A stretch of 64,000 nucleotides of DNA from an uncultured Alphaproteobacteria bacterium (GTDB lineage: Bacteria; Pseudomonadota; Alphaproteobacteria; Rs-D84), in the NCBI GenBank assembly GCA_944389525.1, contig CALXMR010000001.1:159698-223697 (forward strand). Reading direction: 5' to 3'. Under the pieces are notes generated by a model. That model was not told the DNA's origin. It was given only the letters and a program-made list of their open reading frames with translations, and did not search any database. The stretch's first letter is position 1. Each line of letters starts with the position of its first letter. Shown here piece by piece: positions 52,477 through 64,000 of this stretch. The translations under genes were made by a program, and so were the position numbers.

Positions 52477-52941
52477 CTACTTTACAATAAATGACATCTG
52501 GTTTGTATCTGTGGAAAAACAGTTTTCTGTATCCGCCCCATCCAGTTTGACATTGTTTATCTGGATTTCTGTGGCCCATTTTGGACGCGATGTTGCAAAA
52601 TATTGACATTCGCCCTGGGTCAATTGTGTCAGGTTAATTGCAAAACCCACGCCATTATCAATTGATGTCACGGACCATCCGTCACCACCAATCGGTGCCT
52701 TTGCGTTGTCCAGTGCGCCCGCAGATATCAAATATTCAACCGATATGCCCGTATAATCCCCGCGCATACCCATCAGCATTTTTGTATCACGGACGATTTC
52801 TTCCATTTCAACGGCAGCGATTTTTCGCACCTGGTTTCCACGAATAACATTATACATTGCGATTGCAGCGCCACTCATCAGCCCGGCGATGGCCAGTACG
52901 CCAATAATTTCAATCATTGATGCACCATATTCGTGTTTCAT
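52477..52941 (-). CDS. PilS-like type IVb prepilin (putative major pilin)
   Basis: 154 residues. The leader is very short, MKHEYG, with cleavage expected after Gly6. The mature N-terminus ASMIEIIGVLAIAGLM has the essential Glu at +5. The body has the pattern of PilS-type class IVb pilins: an RGDYTGISVEYLISAGAL segment, a GWSV strand and two cysteines (near residues 112 and 141), likely a disulfide loop. It lies between dnaX and an OmpA lipoprotein. Prepilin peptidase, assembly ATPase and secretin are not in this window. Three long minor-pilin-like proteins are encoded just 2 kb away. Confidence 0.82.
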   Translation of the reverse strand: MKHEYGASMIEIIGVLAIAGLMSGAAIAMYNVIRGNQVRKIAAVEMEEIVRDTKMLMGMRGDYTGISVEYLISAGALDNAKAPIGGDGWSVTSIDNGVGFAINLTQLTQGECQYFATSRPKWATEIQINNVKLDGADTENCFSTDTNQMSFIVK

Positions 52942-54904: not shown

Positions 54905-55029
54905 TGGGTGTTTGTATCACACCCGCCTTTAACATCCCAGATAATAATTCATCTTAAAAGCAATTGCAATATTTTTTTTCAATTGCTACACTGCATAACA
55001 GTAACAGGGGCGGGGGAACTGTCTGTATC

Positions 55030-56385
55030 ATGCAACGACAGAGTGGAAATTTTTTATTACAGGCATTATTGGCATTGACGCTGATATTTTCGTTTATTCC
55101 GTTTTTTGCGGCGCGCCTGGCATCGCGTGATATGGATTCGCAAATGTATGCATCCACGCAAAAGGTTGATGTTGCCCAAACGGCGGCGCGCATATTTATT
55201 CGAAATCGCGCCAATGATTTACCATATAACACAACTGTTGTGTCGGGCGATGCGTTTTCTGATTTATTGGAACCGTATGGGTTGCCGTTGGGATTTATTC
55301 CGCGCACTGCATTGGGCCAGAATATATCGTTGGTTATAAACAAAACCGCCACTGCGGTCAATGCACATCTGCGACTGTCTGGGGGAAATTTGTCGGCCGT
55401 ACAATTGGCAGAACTGGCGCGGCGAATTGGATTTTATGCATCGGTATCAGGTGATGATATTTTGGTTGGACTGGCGTTGGATGCGGTGTATTCAGATGTT
55501 GTTCGCCGTAATGAAACGGATTTGGACAACAGTGCATTTTTAACAGATTTAGATATGGGCGGTTTTGTGTTTGATAACGGTGGCGAAATATTTGCGCGCC
55601 GTGGCGAATTTGACACGGGCCAGTTTAATACATTATCTATATTCGGCATCGAAGACGGCCACCGCACGCGTAATGAAATTGATGTTATGATTGCGGCGCG
55701 TACAGTGTTTCAAAATGCGCTGGGGGAATCTGCGCTGTCGTTGACGCGTGGGTCACTGTATGTTGGGTCTGTGGATGCCAAAACAGTATCACAATTCGGT
55801 GACACGGGCAGTTTTACATCCAACAGTGCATCTGTTTATGATTTTGCCATGACGGCGGGGCGTACCAGTTTTTCTGGTCCGTTGGACTGGACGGTTGGCG
55901 GCAATGTGTTAAGCGAGAATATGAGTTTCAGTACAGAACGACTGGAAATAGACTCTTATATCGATACCACCCGCGGCCAAGATGTTTATGTCGATCCAGA
56001 CGAACTGGAATACAGTTCGCGCAGTGGTATCGAAACAGGCTCTATTGTTGCATCGAATATAACAATGCGTGACCAAACATCTGATGCATTAAACAGCGGG
56101 GAAACAGGGGCCGTGATTTTAGACATTCGCCCCGCAGGCACATCGGTATTGCCAGACTTGTTGTTGGATTCGATTGATAATGGTGCGTTCAAAATAATAT
56201 ATAACCCATCAGACACGGATGGTAAAACAATTGATTGCCGTGCGATAATTGCGGACCTGGGCGGTCGTTATAACCAAAAATCTTTATCACAATATATAAT
56301 CTGCCAGTACGCATTTTGGCAGCGTTTGGAAAAAAGAATTGATATAAAACAATGCTTGATGGATGGGCGCAGTGACTGTATGTAA
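55030..56385 (+). CDS. large prepilin-like minor pilin (PilV-like) 1
   Basis: 451 residues. A short leader MQRQSG is followed by NFLLQALLALTLIFSFIPFF, which is prepilin-like in form, but has Gln instead of Glu at +5. A coiled or helical stalk follows (about residues 30-55), then a long beta-rich domain. A fibre-like motif, LDMGGFVFDNGG, lies near residues 171-183, and the last 60 residues hold cysteines (three CRAI..ICQY..KQC). It heads a tightly packed operon with two similar proteins. It could be a pilus tip adhesin component. A longer frame from 54964 contains leader sequence. Confidence 0.7.
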   Translation: MQRQSGNFLLQALLALTLIFSFIPFFAARLASRDMDSQMYASTQKVDVAQTAARIFIRNRANDLPYNTTVVSGDAFSDLLEPYGLPLGFIPRTALGQNISLVINKTATAVNAHLRLSGGNLSAVQLAELARRIGFYASVSGDDILVGLALDAVYSDVVRRNETDLDNSAFLTDLDMGGFVFDNGGEIFARRGEFDTGQFNTLSIFGIEDGHRTRNEIDVMIAARTVFQNALGESALSLTRGSLYVGSVDAKTVSQFGDTGSFTSNSASVYDFAMTAGRTSFSGPLDWTVGGNVLSENMSFSTERLEIDSYIDTTRGQDVYVDPDELEYSSRSGIETGSIVASNITMRDQTSDALNSGETGAVILDIRPAGTSVLPDLLLDSIDNGAFKIIYNPSDTDGKTIDCRAIIADLGGRYNQKSLSQYIICQYAFWQRLEKRIDIKQCLMDGRSDCM

Positions 56386-57580
56386 AACGAAAATTTTTGA
56401 CAATGCATCACGCGGGGCCAGCATGACCGAAGTTTTACTGGCCATGGCGATTGTCGCAATGGCGGCGCCGTTCTTGTACAGTCAAATTGCCAACACCAAC
56501 AATACATTGCGCGATATTGCGGTGGCAAACAAAATAATTGCATTGCGCGATACGGTGATGAATTTTGTACGCTTGAACCAGGCTGATTGGCCAGATGTTG
56601 CGCAAATCAGATTGTCAGATGACGAACTGGATGAAATATCCGAACTGCCAACGGCGGGATTTATTGATAAATATACCGTACACGGTGCAACAATCACAGA
56701 TGTATATTTGACATTTGATTTAAATGATACAGATTTGCGCACGAATCAAATTGCGCGACATATTGGTGGCGATGCCGCGGTTGTCGGAACAGATGGTGTT
56801 GCATATGGTGCAACATATGCGGTTGCCGCGCCAGACTTTAAACCCGGGGATTTGATATATAAAATATCGCGCGATTTGGACGGCGAAGATAAATCTAAAT
56901 ATTTGCATCGTACAGAAACAGGCGAAGAAAATCTGAACACCATGATGCGTGATTTGAATATGAACAATAATCGTGTATATGATGTCGGTGGTGTGATTGG
57001 CAAATCTGCGGAAATCAAGAATGCATCGGCGCAATTTGTCGAAATGCCAAACCTGGGTGCGGATACAATTTATTTTTCATCTGGGGCAAATTTAGATGGT
57101 GATACGGCGACATTTGGATCAATGCGCGTATCGGGCGATATATCTGGGTTCAGAAATATTTATGCAGATACAATGAATGGCCGCACATATACAACAGATG
57201 GGCGCATAATTACAGATCGTGCAACGGTTGTAAATTCTGTGAATGTTGCGAATGATTTGGTGTTAAAATCAGATTCTTCGCGTACAATCAGTGCATTTAC
57301 CGGTATTACTGCGCATACGGTTGTCACATCATATTTAACAACGGAAAACATAATATTTTATGATAATTTCGGATTGACCATATCGGGCGAGTTATTGATG
57401 TCAACCACGCCACCGATACGAATCGGGTCGTGGACATTTCCGTCACTGACGCCCCCGCGTTTTACAGAATTGCATCTGGCCCGGGCGGCGGTCCCGGCAA
57501 CACCCAACGCAGATGAATTTTCTGTAATATTGTCTGATGGATGGCAAACTGCACAACCAACAACGGGAATTTTGCAATGA
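56363..57580 (+). CDS. large prepilin-like minor pilin (PilV-like) 2
   Basis: 405 residues, overlapping the previous gene by 23 bases. The prepilin motif is RGASMTEVLLAMAIVAMAAPFLYS, giving Ala1 and Glu5 after cleavage; the leader is 18 residues. A helical stalk (about residues 40-70) precedes a beta-rich domain. The fibre-like motif LNMNNNRVYDVGG is near residues 196-208. No catalytic motif and no cysteine after the leader are seen. It is co-transcribed with its two relatives, so it probably joins the same fibre. Confidence 0.75.
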   Translation: MGAVTVCKTKIFDNASRGASMTEVLLAMAIVAMAAPFLYSQIANTNNTLRDIAVANKIIALRDTVMNFVRLNQADWPDVAQIRLSDDELDEISELPTAGFIDKYTVHGATITDVYLTFDLNDTDLRTNQIARHIGGDAAVVGTDGVAYGATYAVAAPDFKPGDLIYKISRDLDGEDKSKYLHRTETGEENLNTMMRDLNMNNNRVYDVGGVIGKSAEIKNASAQFVEMPNLGADTIYFSSGANLDGDTATFGSMRVSGDISGFRNIYADTMNGRTYTTDGRIITDRATVVNSVNVANDLVLKSDSSRTISAFTGITAHTVVTSYLTTENIIFYDNFGLTISGELLMSTTPPIRIGSWTFPSLTPPRFTELHLARAAVPATPNADEFSVILSDGWQTAQPTTGILQ

Positions 57581-58896
57581 TGCGAATACCACGAATCTTT
57601 GCCACAACACATCGTGCCCAACATGGCAGTATGTTGGTTGAATTGTTGATGAGTGTTGCATTGGCGGCAATCATTATGCCATTTATTTTCCGTTATCAAC
57701 AAGACGCGATACAGCGGGCTGAAAACATTGTCATTGCCGATAATATGGAAAATATTCAAAGTGCGCTGGAACGGTATATTGTTGCGAATCGTGAAGTGTT
57801 GCTGAACACCGTTGGTCGTAATATTGTTCGTGTAAATATTGCGGACTTGATAGATTATGGTGTGTCGATTGATTTGGCATCGCACGATGACGAATATCAA
57901 TTACGCGTGTTGAAATCTAATGACATAACTGGTCGCGCCACATTACAGGGTGTCGTTGTATTTTCGTCTGATGAAATTGACCCGATGCGCACGCGCGAGA
58001 TTGTGGCGATTGGTGGTGACGATATGGGGTTTATCGATGGCAATCGCGCATACGGAACATTTGGTGCATGGCATGCAAATACGCTGGATATGGGGCTGGA
58101 TGTATCAGACGGCATTGTTGAATTAACCGACATCAACCAGGATGCATCCCTGTATCTGTGGCGTGTGCCATCGGATAATGCATCAGATGCTACGATGATA
58201 TCTGGGCTGAATCTGGGCGGGCATGATATTACGAATGCATCATTCTTTAACGCATCAGCGGCCCAGTTTGACGAGACATTAACCCTGGGGGTTGGTGCGG
58301 CGTCAAATGTGATATTCCAAAACAGAACAACACTGGATAACTATTTTGAATCGACATCGGCCACGGTTGCCGGCATATTGTCATCAGATTCCCGCACGAT
58401 GGAGGTTTCGGGAAATTTTTCATTGGCAGATACCGGAAAATTCACCAGTTTTACCACCGGTGATTTGCTGGCAACAAACATGACATTGGGTGGTCTGTCG
58501 ATATTGTCTGATTTGGACGGGCCGGCGATATTACAGGTAAACAGGTCAATTGACATGACCGGTGGGCACATTGATGCGATGTATGTCACGGTTGGTTTTG
58601 CCGGGTCTATTGCGCCGCGGCTGGTCGTCAGGGACAGAATCGAAGATTCTACAAATCCAAATTATTTTTGGGATGTTGATTATGGTGTTGCGAACCTGGT
58701 GGATGTAACACTGCAAGAATTACATACCATGGCAATGGACATGGTTTATTCTGAAAATGCGCCTGATACGGACGCGGGGCGTATATTCAACGCGGTCGTA
58801 TCGAACAAGAACGCAACGGCATCTGATTACATGAACGCAATAACAGAAATTCAAAACGCGGTACGTGCAAAATATCGCCGGTTGAATTTAGAATAA
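57577..58896 (+). CDS. large prepilin-like minor pilin (PilV-like) 3
   Basis: 439 residues, overlapping the previous gene by 4 bases (ATGA). The prepilin motif is HGSMLVELLMSVALAAIIMPF, with Ser1 and Glu5 after cleavage; the leader is 17 residues. A helical stalk with DNMENIQSALERYIV precedes a long beta-rich part. The fibre-like motif LNLGGHDITNASFF is near residues 210-223. A C-terminal helix (ITEIQNAVRAKYRRLNLE) ends it. I choose ATG 57577 over 57541 because the first lies at the overlap. Confidence 0.75.
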   Translation: MMRIPRIFATTHRAQHGSMLVELLMSVALAAIIMPFIFRYQQDAIQRAENIVIADNMENIQSALERYIVANREVLLNTVGRNIVRVNIADLIDYGVSIDLASHDDEYQLRVLKSNDITGRATLQGVVVFSSDEIDPMRTREIVAIGGDDMGFIDGNRAYGTFGAWHANTLDMGLDVSDGIVELTDINQDASLYLWRVPSDNASDATMISGLNLGGHDITNASFFNASAAQFDETLTLGVGAASNVIFQNRTTLDNYFESTSATVAGILSSDSRTMEVSGNFSLADTGKFTSFTTGDLLATNMTLGGLSILSDLDGPAILQVNRSIDMTGGHIDAMYVTVGFAGSIAPRLVVRDRIEDSTNPNYFWDVDYGVANLVDVTLQELHTMAMDMVYSENAPDTDAGRIFNAVVSNKNATASDYMNAITEIQNAVRAKYRRLNLE

Positions 58897-60867: not shown

Positions 60868-60895
60868 CATCGGACAAATTTGTCCGATTTTTTTA
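60868..60895 (+). terminator. terminator of the pilin-like operon
   Basis: ATCGGACAAA/TTTGTCCGAT is a perfect palindrome (60869-60888) followed by TTTTTT. Confidence 0.9.
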
Positions 60896-60982
60896 TGAAA
60901 TATTCGTTGGAATTTACATATTTTTCTTTATCAAATGATGAAAGTATGTTATACTTAAAGCAATAAATATGGAGTGAGTCTA

Positions 60983-63900
60983 ATGAATTTGCTGAAAAAA
61001 ACAGTTGGTTTTATGGCGGTTTTCTGCGTGATTCCGGCGGCAATTGCCTTGACCGCGCGCCCCAGTGTTGTTGGCACGGCGTCATCGCGTTTGCCGACAA
61101 TGACGGCGTATATAAACGCGGTTTCTTCATCGGGTTCATCGTCAACATCAAATTTGTTGGACAACGCCGAATGTATTGATGCGTACACCGCATGTTTAAA
61201 GGGTGGTGATGTCTGTGGTGCAAATTTCGAAGAATGCACGACCAAGGTTTTGTTCCATGCACAAATGCCAAAATGTTTAAGTACTTTGGCCCAGTGCAGT
61301 GCATCGGGTGTAAATGCGCTGTTTGGAACATCGTCAACAACGGCACTGTCGAATGTTGCATCACGAAATGAACATGACGAAGTGACGGATTATACATACC
61401 CCACAGACGGCAGTGTTCTGGGGCAAATGATAACTGGCGCGGCGATTTCAAACATGTACGATACCAGTGACTGTGTCCGCCGCTATACATCATGTCTGCA
61501 ACGCGATAATGTTTGTGGTTCAGAATTTGAATTATGCACAACAAATACCGAATTCAGAAAGCAAATGGTTTTCTGTGATTCCACATTGGCCCGGTGCCAG
61601 GCGGCGGGTAAAATTGAACTGTTTGGTTCAACATCTACAACAACCAACCCAACATCCGACAGTCGTGTTGGCATCATGATTGCCGAAGGTGCGGCCCTGG
61701 CGGCGGTGGACGCGGTATCTACATGTTATACCGTTGTTGACCAGTGTATTTTAAACGCATGTGCGGCCAATCCGTATAAATGTATCGCTGATTCATCACA
61801 GCGTGCGGTAAAATTGGTTGACGCGATTAACAGTGGTGTTTTGGCAGATACACCCAGTGCAATTTTGGTGTCGGCTGTTGACACGGTTAGCAATTCGTCC
61901 GTACAATCGTACATTAAAAATTCATGTTTGGATACAATTGGTGGCAATAAATATTGCTATGCAACATTCTTGGGTAATGGCATGATGCCAACATCTTCAC
62001 AATTAAGTGATGCTGACAACCAAGAAGACATTTTTGCCGAGGCGTATTCAGTGCGTATGAATGATTCTATGCGTGCCAGATTAAACGATTTAATCGAGGA
62101 TTTTGATACCGATGCCAAAGAAAAATGTTCTGAAACAATATCATCATGCGTAATGCGTGTTTGTGGTGGCGGTAATGGCGCGGCATGTTATTCATTGGTG
62201 CATGGGAATGTGGATAAATCCATTAACAATGATGCCGTTTATGATGAAATTCAAACGGGGTGTGCGGCAATTGTGAATACTGATCCATATTGCCAGTATG
62301 CGGCACAAAACCCGACCAGCACGGGCACATACACATATGCATATAACCAGGCGGATACATTTGCCACATTGTTCCCTGAATATGATGATAATGGCAGTGA
62401 TCCAATTGGTGTAATCGCATCATTGAATGCATCGTTGGCCACCAGTTACAGCGATGCGGCAATTGCCCAGATGCGCACACAATGCGAAAATGTCGCGAAA
62501 AGTTGTGTAAAATCCATGTGTGGTGATGAATATGTAAATTGCTATCGCAATCGTACGGATATTTATTCTTCGCTGACCAATACTGGCACGACGTCATTTG
62601 ATAACAGCATGAACAAGGTTGGTGGTGTTCTGGATTACACGGTTGTTTTGGGATTGTGTATGGATACGGTCAAGAATGCAAGCGTGTGTCAAGAACATCT
62701 GGCGATTGAAACGGCGAAAATGAACATTGCTGATAAAAACCAGACTGCTTCTTGGGGAACCAGTTCCAGTGTACGCCAGGGCTGGGTTGATGCCGGGTCA
62801 TCAGTTACTTTAAGCACGGTTACATCTGACCAGGTCCAGGCAACAGACTTTGACGGCAATCTGTTGTGCCGTGCCGATGATGGATCCCAGGGTGTTTGCA
62901 ACACAGTTACGGCCAGTGGCCAGATATATGACGAACCCGTGTATATAACATACAACACATATGCACAAAATCTGGCGGTGGAATCTTTGTTCAGTACATT
63001 GCTGTATGATATTGAAAAAGAAGCCCAGGCGATTTACAACAGTAAATTGACCCAGGAACAGAATATGTGCCTGGCGGCAAATGCAGGCGGTTTGTTGGCC
63101 AAGAATGATACTGGTGCAACATACATGTGGGCAAAATTGCGCAGCAATCGTGTCCCAGATGACTATTCCGTCATGGGGCTGGAACGCAATAACTTTGTGG
63201 CCAGTAACGATTTGTATGGTTCGTTCTGTGCGGTTAAGGTTACATTGCAGTCCGATGACCCAACTATTCAAACCGCAATGAAGGGTGCAGAATGGACTAC
63301 CGCGTACTTTGCGGTGGGTGATGCCTTCTCTTGCGGCAGCTGGATCCCGGTCGAAGATTTGGAAGCAATCGCAAATCGCGTTTCTTGCGAAAAGGCTGGC
63401 GGTGTATACGAAAATGGCAAATGTAATCGGAACGATAACCAAAAAACAGTAGAATTCTGGACTACAACATTGGGCACATTGGCAACTGGTCTAGGTGGTG
63501 CCTATTTGGGCAAGGGTATCCAAGATGGTTCTATCTTGGGTGGTCTGAGTGGTAAAAAGAAAACAACTGATAATAACAAAGTTTTATCCGATTATATAGA
63601 CAAAGTTGAAAGTGTCATCAGAAACAATGGTTCCTATGTTCCTGATGCAGTATCTGTCACAGCCTATATGTCGACAATAGCAAAAACAGCAGAAAAATTG
63701 AATGTGGACAATAGTATTGTACGCGATGCCGAAACAGATGTCACAGCGTGGTATAGCCAATACACCGCGGTGATGGATCTCAGCAGTACCAGGGCCAATT
63801 ATAGAACCGGGGTAACCGAGGAAAGTAAAAACGAGCTGACAAAATTGCAAGCAGAAGCACTTGCGTCGTTGTCTGCGCTGAATTTTGCTGTTGACAACGC

Positions 63901-64000
63901 AGAAGACAATTCGGAATCGGACGGAAGCTGGTGGGATCGTAATGGCGGAACACTGGTTGGCGGTGTTGTGACGGCGGGTGTTGGTGGTTTCTTGATAAAC
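60983..64000 (+). CDS. giant exported cysteine-rich protein, 3' end beyond window
   Basis: At least 1,006 codons stay open to the right edge. The start ATG has GGAGTGAG five bases upstream and a TATACT box at 60950-60955. A signal peptide (LLKKTVGFMAVFCVIPAAIA) is followed by two cysteine modules with the same spacing, C-x6-C-x6-C-x6-C-x12-C-x6-C, at residues 64-105 and 164-205. A third, C-x6-C-x4-C-x6-C, is at 248-267. More pairs (for example KCSETISSCVMRVC and SCVKSMC) lie before residue 520. Towards the edge Gly-rich hydrophobic stretches appear (TGLGGAYLGKG, LVGGVVTAGVGGFL), possibly membrane-inserting. I know no family with this layout. It follows the pilin-like operon. Confidence 0.85.
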   Translation, partial: MNLLKKTVGFMAVFCVIPAAIALTARPSVVGTASSRLPTMTAYINAVSSSGSSSTSNLLDNAECIDAYTACLKGGDVCGANFEECTTKVLFHAQMPKCLSTLAQCSASGVNALFGTSSTTALSNVASRNEHDEVTDYTYPTDGSVLGQMITGAAISNMYDTSDCVRRYTSCLQRDNVCGSEFELCTTNTEFRKQMVFCDSTLARCQAAGKIELFGSTSTTTNPTSDSRVGIMIAEGAALAAVDAVSTCYTVVDQCILNACAANPYKCIADSSQRAVKLVDAINSGVLADTPSAILVSAVDTVSNSSVQSYIKNSCLDTIGGNKYCYATFLGNGMMPTSSQLSDADNQEDIFAEAYSVRMNDSMRARLNDLIEDFDTDAKEKCSETISSCVMRVCGGGNGAACYSLVHGNVDKSINNDAVYDEIQTGCAAIVNTDPYCQYAAQNPTSTGTYTYAYNQADTFATLFPEYDDNGSDPIGVIASLNASLATSYSDAAIAQMRTQCENVAKSCVKSMCGDEYVNCYRNRTDIYSSLTNTGTTSFDNSMNKVGGVLDYTVVLGLCMDTVKNASVCQEHLAIETAKMNIADKNQTASWGTSSSVRQGWVDAGSSVTLSTVTSDQVQATDFDGNLLCRADDGSQGVCNTVTASGQIYDEPVYITYNTYAQNLAVESLFSTLLYDIEKEAQAIYNSKLTQEQNMCLAANAGGLLAKNDTGATYMWAKLRSNRVPDDYSVMGLERNNFVASNDLYGSFCAVKVTLQSDDPTIQTAMKGAEWTTAYFAVGDAFSCGSWIPVEDLEAIANRVSCEKAGGVYENGKCNRNDNQKTVEFWTTTLGTLATGLGGAYLGKGIQDGSILGGLSGKKKTTDNNKVLSDYIDKVESVIRNNGSYVPDAVSVTAYMSTIAKTAEKLNVDNSIVRDAETDVTAWYSQYTAVMDLSSTRANYRTGVTEESKNELTKLQAEALASLSALNFAVDNAEDNSESDGSWWDRNGGTLVGGVVTAGVGGFLIN

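Follow-up and report, generated by a model that had tools for sequence, protein, structure and literature searches.

The window analysed here, a stretch of 64,000 nucleotides, belongs to the 0.92-Mb genome of an uncultured bacterium whose relatives are Ca. Enterousia of the order Rs-D84. Its last gene encodes a cysteine-rich exported protein, referred to below as the cysteine-module protein. The gene starts at ATG 60983 on the plus strand, an in-frame GTG lies 5' of it at 60974, and its reading frame is still open at the window end. The remainder of the gene was recovered from the contig: 156 further bases lead to a TAA at G000:C1:223853, which gives a protein of 1057 aa without a frameshift. 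A frameshift or assembly artefact is ruled out, as the reading frame is likewise intact in the orthologs from dozens of independent genomes. The original prediction spoke of a giant exported protein. The signal peptide bears out the export, but at this length ‘giant’ is generous. The signal peptide has no conserved lipobox cysteine, Cys15 being found in just 23% of the orthologs. The features of the locus are as follows:

L126:2527-5198, L117:9857-14567 and window 52477-52941, minus strand: type IVb pilus genes (secretin, TcpQ, PilO, T2SSE, GspF-like, PilS-like pilin)
54964-56385, 56363-57580 and 57541-58896, plus strand: three large genes for pilin-like proteins, their order retained in 24 of 27 loci; the second gives a weak N_methyl match
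60869-60888, plus strand: terminator-like hairpin between the pseudouridine synthase gene and the cysteine-module gene; number of such hairpins near chance
60928-60955, plus strand: promoter-like site TTATCA-16-TATACT with TG before the -10, a consensus match only; number of such sites near chance
60983-64000, plus strand: cysteine-module gene, first 1006 of 1057 codons; orthologs in all 34 sampled genomes of the same genus
60983-61051, plus strand: predicted Sec signal peptide, residues 1-23 (...AAIA-LT), from the sequence; hydrophobicity maximum at residues 7-25
61142-61357, plus strand: unit 1, residues 54-125, C64/71/78/85/98/105, C6C6CG5C12C6C; invariant cysteines, predicted helix-loop-helix (pLDDT about 90)
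61442-61657, plus strand: unit 2, residues 154-225, tandem duplicate of unit 1 (hhalign 99.4%, 50% identity)
61694-62002, plus strand: unit 3, residues 238-340, C248/255/260/267...315/325 (ortholog alignment)
62096-62332, plus strand: unit 4, residues 372-450, C382/389/394/402...427/437 (ortholog alignment)
62453-62728, plus strand: unit 5, residues 491-582, C501/508/513/520...559/569 (ortholog alignment; the profiles of units 1 and 2 match it weakly, 31-43%)
62729-63382, plus strand: mixed alpha/beta region, residues 583-800, Cys 629, 639, 696, 749 and 784 (ortholog alignment, AlphaFold)
63470-64000, plus strand: fast-evolving helical C-terminal region

The same neighbourhood recurs 5' of the gene in 24 of the 27 loci: the pilin-like genes, a zinc-ribbon protein, a 160-aa exported protein and the pseudouridine synthase. 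The three pilin-like proteins are 405-473 aa long, cluster together by sequence and have a weak Pfam match or none. It had been stated that the cysteine-module gene lies next to a pilin-like operon. It does adjoin these genes in the 24 loci, but it has a promoter-like site of its own and is framed by terminator-like hairpins. The second of these, a strong hairpin with a T-run, lies 3' of the stop codon (L002:8853-8879). Both hairpins sit exactly at gene ends, though their number is near chance. Because of the promoter-like site 5' of the ATG and the hairpins at both sides, the gene looks monocistronic, that is, a transcription unit of its own. In relatives, a coiled-coil exported protein of about 590-740 aa with an N-terminal cysteine-rich stretch is found 3' of the ortholog, along with a second exported protein of about 250-280 aa without a named function (L036:11048-13915, L046:9519 onwards, L120:4010-6624).

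Two modules of six cysteines were described at the outset, and their positions (64, 71, 78, 85, 98 and 105; 164, 171, 178, 185, 198 and 205) proved to be exact. These modules, here units 1 and 2, have one spacing in common, C6C6C6C12C6C. The mature protein has 38 cysteines in the window genome's copy, and in 20000 random placements of these, two six-cysteine runs with identical spacing occurred 0 times. Likewise, 13 C-x6-C pairs are observed against 1.4 expected, the maximum in 20000 random placements being 7. All 12 cysteines of the two modules are kept in every ortholog row spanning the region. The repeat distance of exactly 100 residues is found in 44 of 52 orthologs, but it lies between 94 and 103 in the remaining ones. 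Further, the linkers between units vary in length among orthologs, and an exactly periodic 100-aa repeat is thus ruled out. A third, altered module had been noted at residues 248-267. Its cysteines are present, but they are part of a full six-cysteine unit that is followed by two more alike. There are thus five tandem units in all, two of the type C6C6C6C12C6C and three of the type C6C4C6-7C...C9C. Besides these, the five cysteines of the mixed alpha/beta region and one in the C-terminal tail (C1038, beyond the window end) are conserved. Hydropathy marks two glycine-rich hydrophobic segments in the C-terminal region, at about residues 832-850 and 985-1006.

Judged by sequence, units 1 and 2 are homologous, beyond mere likeness of spacing, because hhalign matches them at 99.4% with 50% identity. 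In a tree of modules they fall into one group, separate from the paralogs (the rows L018_M1 and L025_M1 are second modules, as the first modules there missed the pattern). They therefore arose by a single tandem duplication that predates the radiation of the genus. For units 3-5, direct homology with unit 1 was not detected by profile comparison, the match of unit 5 being weak. They appear to be linked to unit 1 through the likeness of spacing, through the ortholog L025 and through an alignment with a paralog. In L025, the loop of unit 1 has x4 instead of x6, i.e., a C6C4C core, so the two core types interconvert. The paralog group A aligns at 96% to the cysteine-module protein across unit 2 and into the first part of unit 3.

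AlphaFold modelling of residues 50-345 with 27 sequences gave a mean pLDDT of 83, rising to about 90 in both modules. In the model of unit 1, a helix bearing C64 and C71 is followed by a loop with C78 and C85, a helix with C98, a turn with C105 and a short helix; unit 2 is alike. Cysteines on one face of helices had been proposed. This agrees with C64 and C71, which share a helix, but C78 and C85 are placed in the inter-helix loop and C98 on the next helix. Repeated cysteine modules of mainly helical nature, as first suggested, are nevertheless what the five units and the predicted helix-loop-helix amount to. The model of the whole protein reached moderate confidence, with a low pTM (mean pLDDT 66.5, pTM 0.41). 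Its Foldseek matches were generic helical bundles, and no significant match was found against the PDB and viral models.

The ortholog alignment holds 53 sequences, nearly all from the genus Ca. Enterousia of the order Rs-D84, and the spacing was counted in about 52 of them. Each of 36 mature cysteines is kept in 92-100% of the rows. The spacing within the four-cysteine cores and between the last two cysteines of each unit is constant in essentially all of the orthologs counted. Mean identity is 66% for the ectodomain, 64-70% for the neighbouring pilin-like proteins, 75% for RluD and 37% for the C-terminal region. Since the ectodomain is conserved to a similar degree as the pilin-like neighbours, a conserved structural or docking role fits these sequences better than an immune-exposed, fast-evolving adhesin.

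Sequence searches of Pfam, NCBIfam and the PDB yielded no relative of the cysteine-module protein, and a profile search with the module itself matched no described domain family. With Foldseek also silent, the early remark that the pattern belongs to no named family has held. Weak matches to PTN_MK_N (2.7e-4), TCR, FTA4 and TFIIA were below their cut-offs; cysteine or coiled-coil composition looks responsible for them. A phage origin was also considered, and tblastn found no match in 50,697 phage records.

The module profile was made from an alignment of 17 diverse rows, in all of which the six cysteines and the glycine are invariant. The window genome has 11 matches to it at E <= 0.001. If weaker matches are counted too, some nine to ten ORFs with 290-1065 codons are reached; the module is thus found in other proteins of the genome, where the original proposal was to look for it. 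The profile matches 112 of the 114 genomes examined of the order Rs-D84, and in other genera of the family, open frames of similar length bear the module. Outside the order, samples of 385 genomes of the class and 398 of the phylum gave no match at E <= 0.001. In three genomes of the phylum sample, short partial matches at E 0.003-0.01 were taken as chance. As far as sampled, the module superfamily thus appears confined to this alphaproteobacterial order. Its motif, C-x6-C-x(4,6)-C-G-x5-C-x12-C-x(6,7)-C, is present in the cysteine-module protein (the x4 form is that of L025), and so are the signal peptide and the high, even cysteine number that go with it. The paralog groups A and B are tandem genes at G000:C3:41982-46731 with 558 aligned columns in common. 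The C-terminus of paralog A has a comparable glycine-rich segment and then a cysteine pair.

A cluster of cysteine-rich exported proteins was also seen at L105:6643-12195 on the minus strand, where members of 288 and 621 aa have six-cysteine units. A 980-aa protein of this cluster has a CarboxypepD_reg-like domain, EGF-like cysteine-rich stretches and a C-terminal OmpA domain. At L060:163-2133 on the plus strand, near tandem paralogs, lies an ORF open at the left, whose C-terminal part looks by eye like an autotransporter barrel.

The conserved cysteines bear the mark of disulfides, because their counts are mostly even and the extra cysteines arrive in pairs. Of 49 full-length orthologs, 39 have an even mature count and 10 an odd one. 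In the paralog groups A and B, every member sampled, 13 per group, has exactly 36 cysteines, even where the positions differ. Two variable columns were gained or lost together in 12 orthologs with zero exceptions, and private cysteines often occur as pairs, such as 802/814 in the window genome's protein. As the rows are related by descent, no probability is attached to the parity or the paired gains. The same even counts and paired gains suggest intramolecular bonds rather than a cross-linked net.

As for the machinery, a DsbA-like gene is present in the window genome at G000:C3:52698-53531 (L119:2698-3531, minus strand); among 41 relative genomes of good quality, 40 have DsbA. No recognisable match to DsbB or VKOR was found in the window genome. 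A membrane protein of 168-169 aa with an N-terminal CPxC and no Pfam match occurs in two copies, L117:2803-3309 (minus strand) and L109:3850-4359 (plus strand). Beside each copy lies a related gene coding for about 200 aa, and one copy is two genes upstream of a cysteine-rich paralog. This protein is a candidate thiol-redox partner.

Certain known proteins resemble the units in part. The twin CX9C (CHCH) mitochondrial proteins also have short helices with regularly spaced cysteines held by disulfides. Here, however, the pairs are C-x6-C, with six cysteines per unit and the units in tandem within 1057 aa; the pair of CX9C helices is absent, and no CHCH-type Pfam profile matches the module. The Helicobacter proteins HcpA-E (Sel1-like) are secreted helical repeat proteins with one disulfide clamp per repeat, whereas the present units have six cysteines each at another spacing, and the Sel1 repeat profile of Pfam has no match in the cysteine-module protein. 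The GDNF/GAS1 receptor domains of animals are helical, have many cysteines and contain a C-x6-C-x5-C motif. Neither PF02351 nor the PDB, by sequence or by fold, gave a match to them, the short module being hard for such searches.

There is a strong case, built from sequence and comparison, that the protein is a disulfide-stapled, helical-repeat scaffold exported to the envelope. It would leave the cytoplasm via Sec, and in the periplasm DsbA or an equivalent would introduce about 18 intramolecular disulfides. Three disulfides per unit would staple the five tandem helix-loop-helix units into a stiff scaffold, which the variable glycine-rich C-terminal region may anchor or oligomerise. Displayed at the cell envelope, the scaffold would serve, together with the type IVb pilus, the contact or attachment of an auxotrophic, partner-dependent bacterium to cells or surfaces. 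The disulfide pairing, anchoring, surface location and contact role are what we infer. A disulfide-clamped surface scaffold or attachment protein for contact, alongside the type IVb pilus, is accordingly proposed as a tentative reading, with chances somewhat short of even; the adhesin suggested at the outset is hypothetical. Uncultured Rs-D84 organisms are common in the gut, have genomes below about 1 Mb and are believed to live at the expense of other cells, and the lineage was inferred to be an obligate symbiont or parasite (PMC12306168). Its hypothetical membrane-bound proteins, so far unexplained, may have a part in its interactions with other cells (PMC12306168).

A different possibility, doubtful but to be taken seriously, is a structural envelope protein: stabilised by disulfides, the superfamily would form a layer in the periplasm or associated with the outer membrane and reinforce the cell wall without direct adhesion. 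The ten or so paralogs, their near-universal presence in the order and a conservation like that of the neighbour genes all agree with it, and one cysteine-rich neighbour of family members has an OmpA peptidoglycan-binding domain. Moreover, reduced-genome Chlamydia use disulfide-linked envelope proteins (PMC6752827). The chlamydial OmcA and OmcB are likewise exported, cysteine-rich and disulfide-dependent, in reduced-genome bacteria in which DsbA is present (PMC6752827). No sequence relationship to them was found, however, nor any Pfam or NCBIfam match to the chlamydial cysteine-rich envelope family, and the present protein has repeated helical units of fixed spacing. OmcA and OmcB form a cross-linked complex, whereas the even counts and paired gains seen here point to intramolecular disulfides. 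A wall-strengthening layer also leaves the conserved link to the pilin-like genes unexplained.

That link raises the question of the pilus itself. The window genome encodes a secretin lipoprotein, TcpQ, PilO, T2SSE, a GspF-like protein and a PilS-like pilin. The PilC/GspF-like (T2SSF) gene near T2SSE was recognised by sequence, the Pfam match being in the relative G029. TcpQ is found in 112 of 114 Rs-D84 genomes, and the two Rs-D84 genomes without a module match retain the pilus. In the published account of these lineages, type IV pili are mentioned for the UBA9783 lineage only (PMC12306168). Because pilin-like genes adjoin the cysteine-module gene, the protein could act with the type IVb pilus as its tip or accessory adhesin, like PilY1/PilC or the secreted partners of TCP/CFA-III, which is rather improbable. 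It resembles PilY1/PilC and TcpF-like proteins in being a large exported protein (about 1050 aa) encoded near pilin-like genes in the 24 of 27 loci, and in G029 a paralog follows the T2SSE-T2SSF genes. Yet it has no domain in common with them: there is no Pfam match to any PilY1/PilC domain, no beta-propeller is predicted, and the module region is helical in the AlphaFold model. Proximity to minor pilins is a trait of PilY1/PilC, but the gene here is apparently a separate transcription unit with its own promoter-like site and terminator-like hairpin. Most paralogs in the window genome lie away from pilus genes, and the high conservation also speaks against a tip adhesin.

Even less probable is a periplasmic protein that binds nutrients or host molecules for scavenging by an auxotroph. 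Rs-D84 organisms lack standard transporters and biosynthesis (PMC12306168), and many exported paralogs could bind different ligands; on the other hand, no binding-protein fold or family was recognised, no linked transporter genes were seen, and the architecture is alike and conserved in all orthologs. Metal or cofactor binding with the cysteines as ligands, suggested by the very high cysteine content, is about as improbable given export to an oxidising compartment, cysteines seven apart instead of CxxC knuckles, even counts with paired gain and loss, and no match to a known metal domain.

Cysteine-rich surface proteins are known as a kind; for a family with such an order-wide expansion no description was found, and no publication on cysteine-rich proteins in Rs-D84 turned up in the literature searched. 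The module lies outside all Pfam and NCBIfam models and therefore merits a family entry of its own. It also poses a biochemical question: how dozens of disulfides are made in a fermenting cell without a respiratory chain, as Rs-D84 organisms are reported to be, and without a recognisable DsbB or VKOR. In a bolder and unlikely extension, the order-wide cell surface of these partner-dependent bacteria, whose genomes range from sub-megabase to about one megabase, would be built from one private superfamily of disulfide-stapled helical repeats and, with the type IVb pilus, form a touch-and-feed apparatus, its disulfides being made without recognisable DsbB/VKOR in anaerobic, non-respiring cells. 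With roughly ten members per genome, the family offers a concrete candidate for the interface through which these bacteria make contact, and its members may provide markers for imaging or affinity capture.
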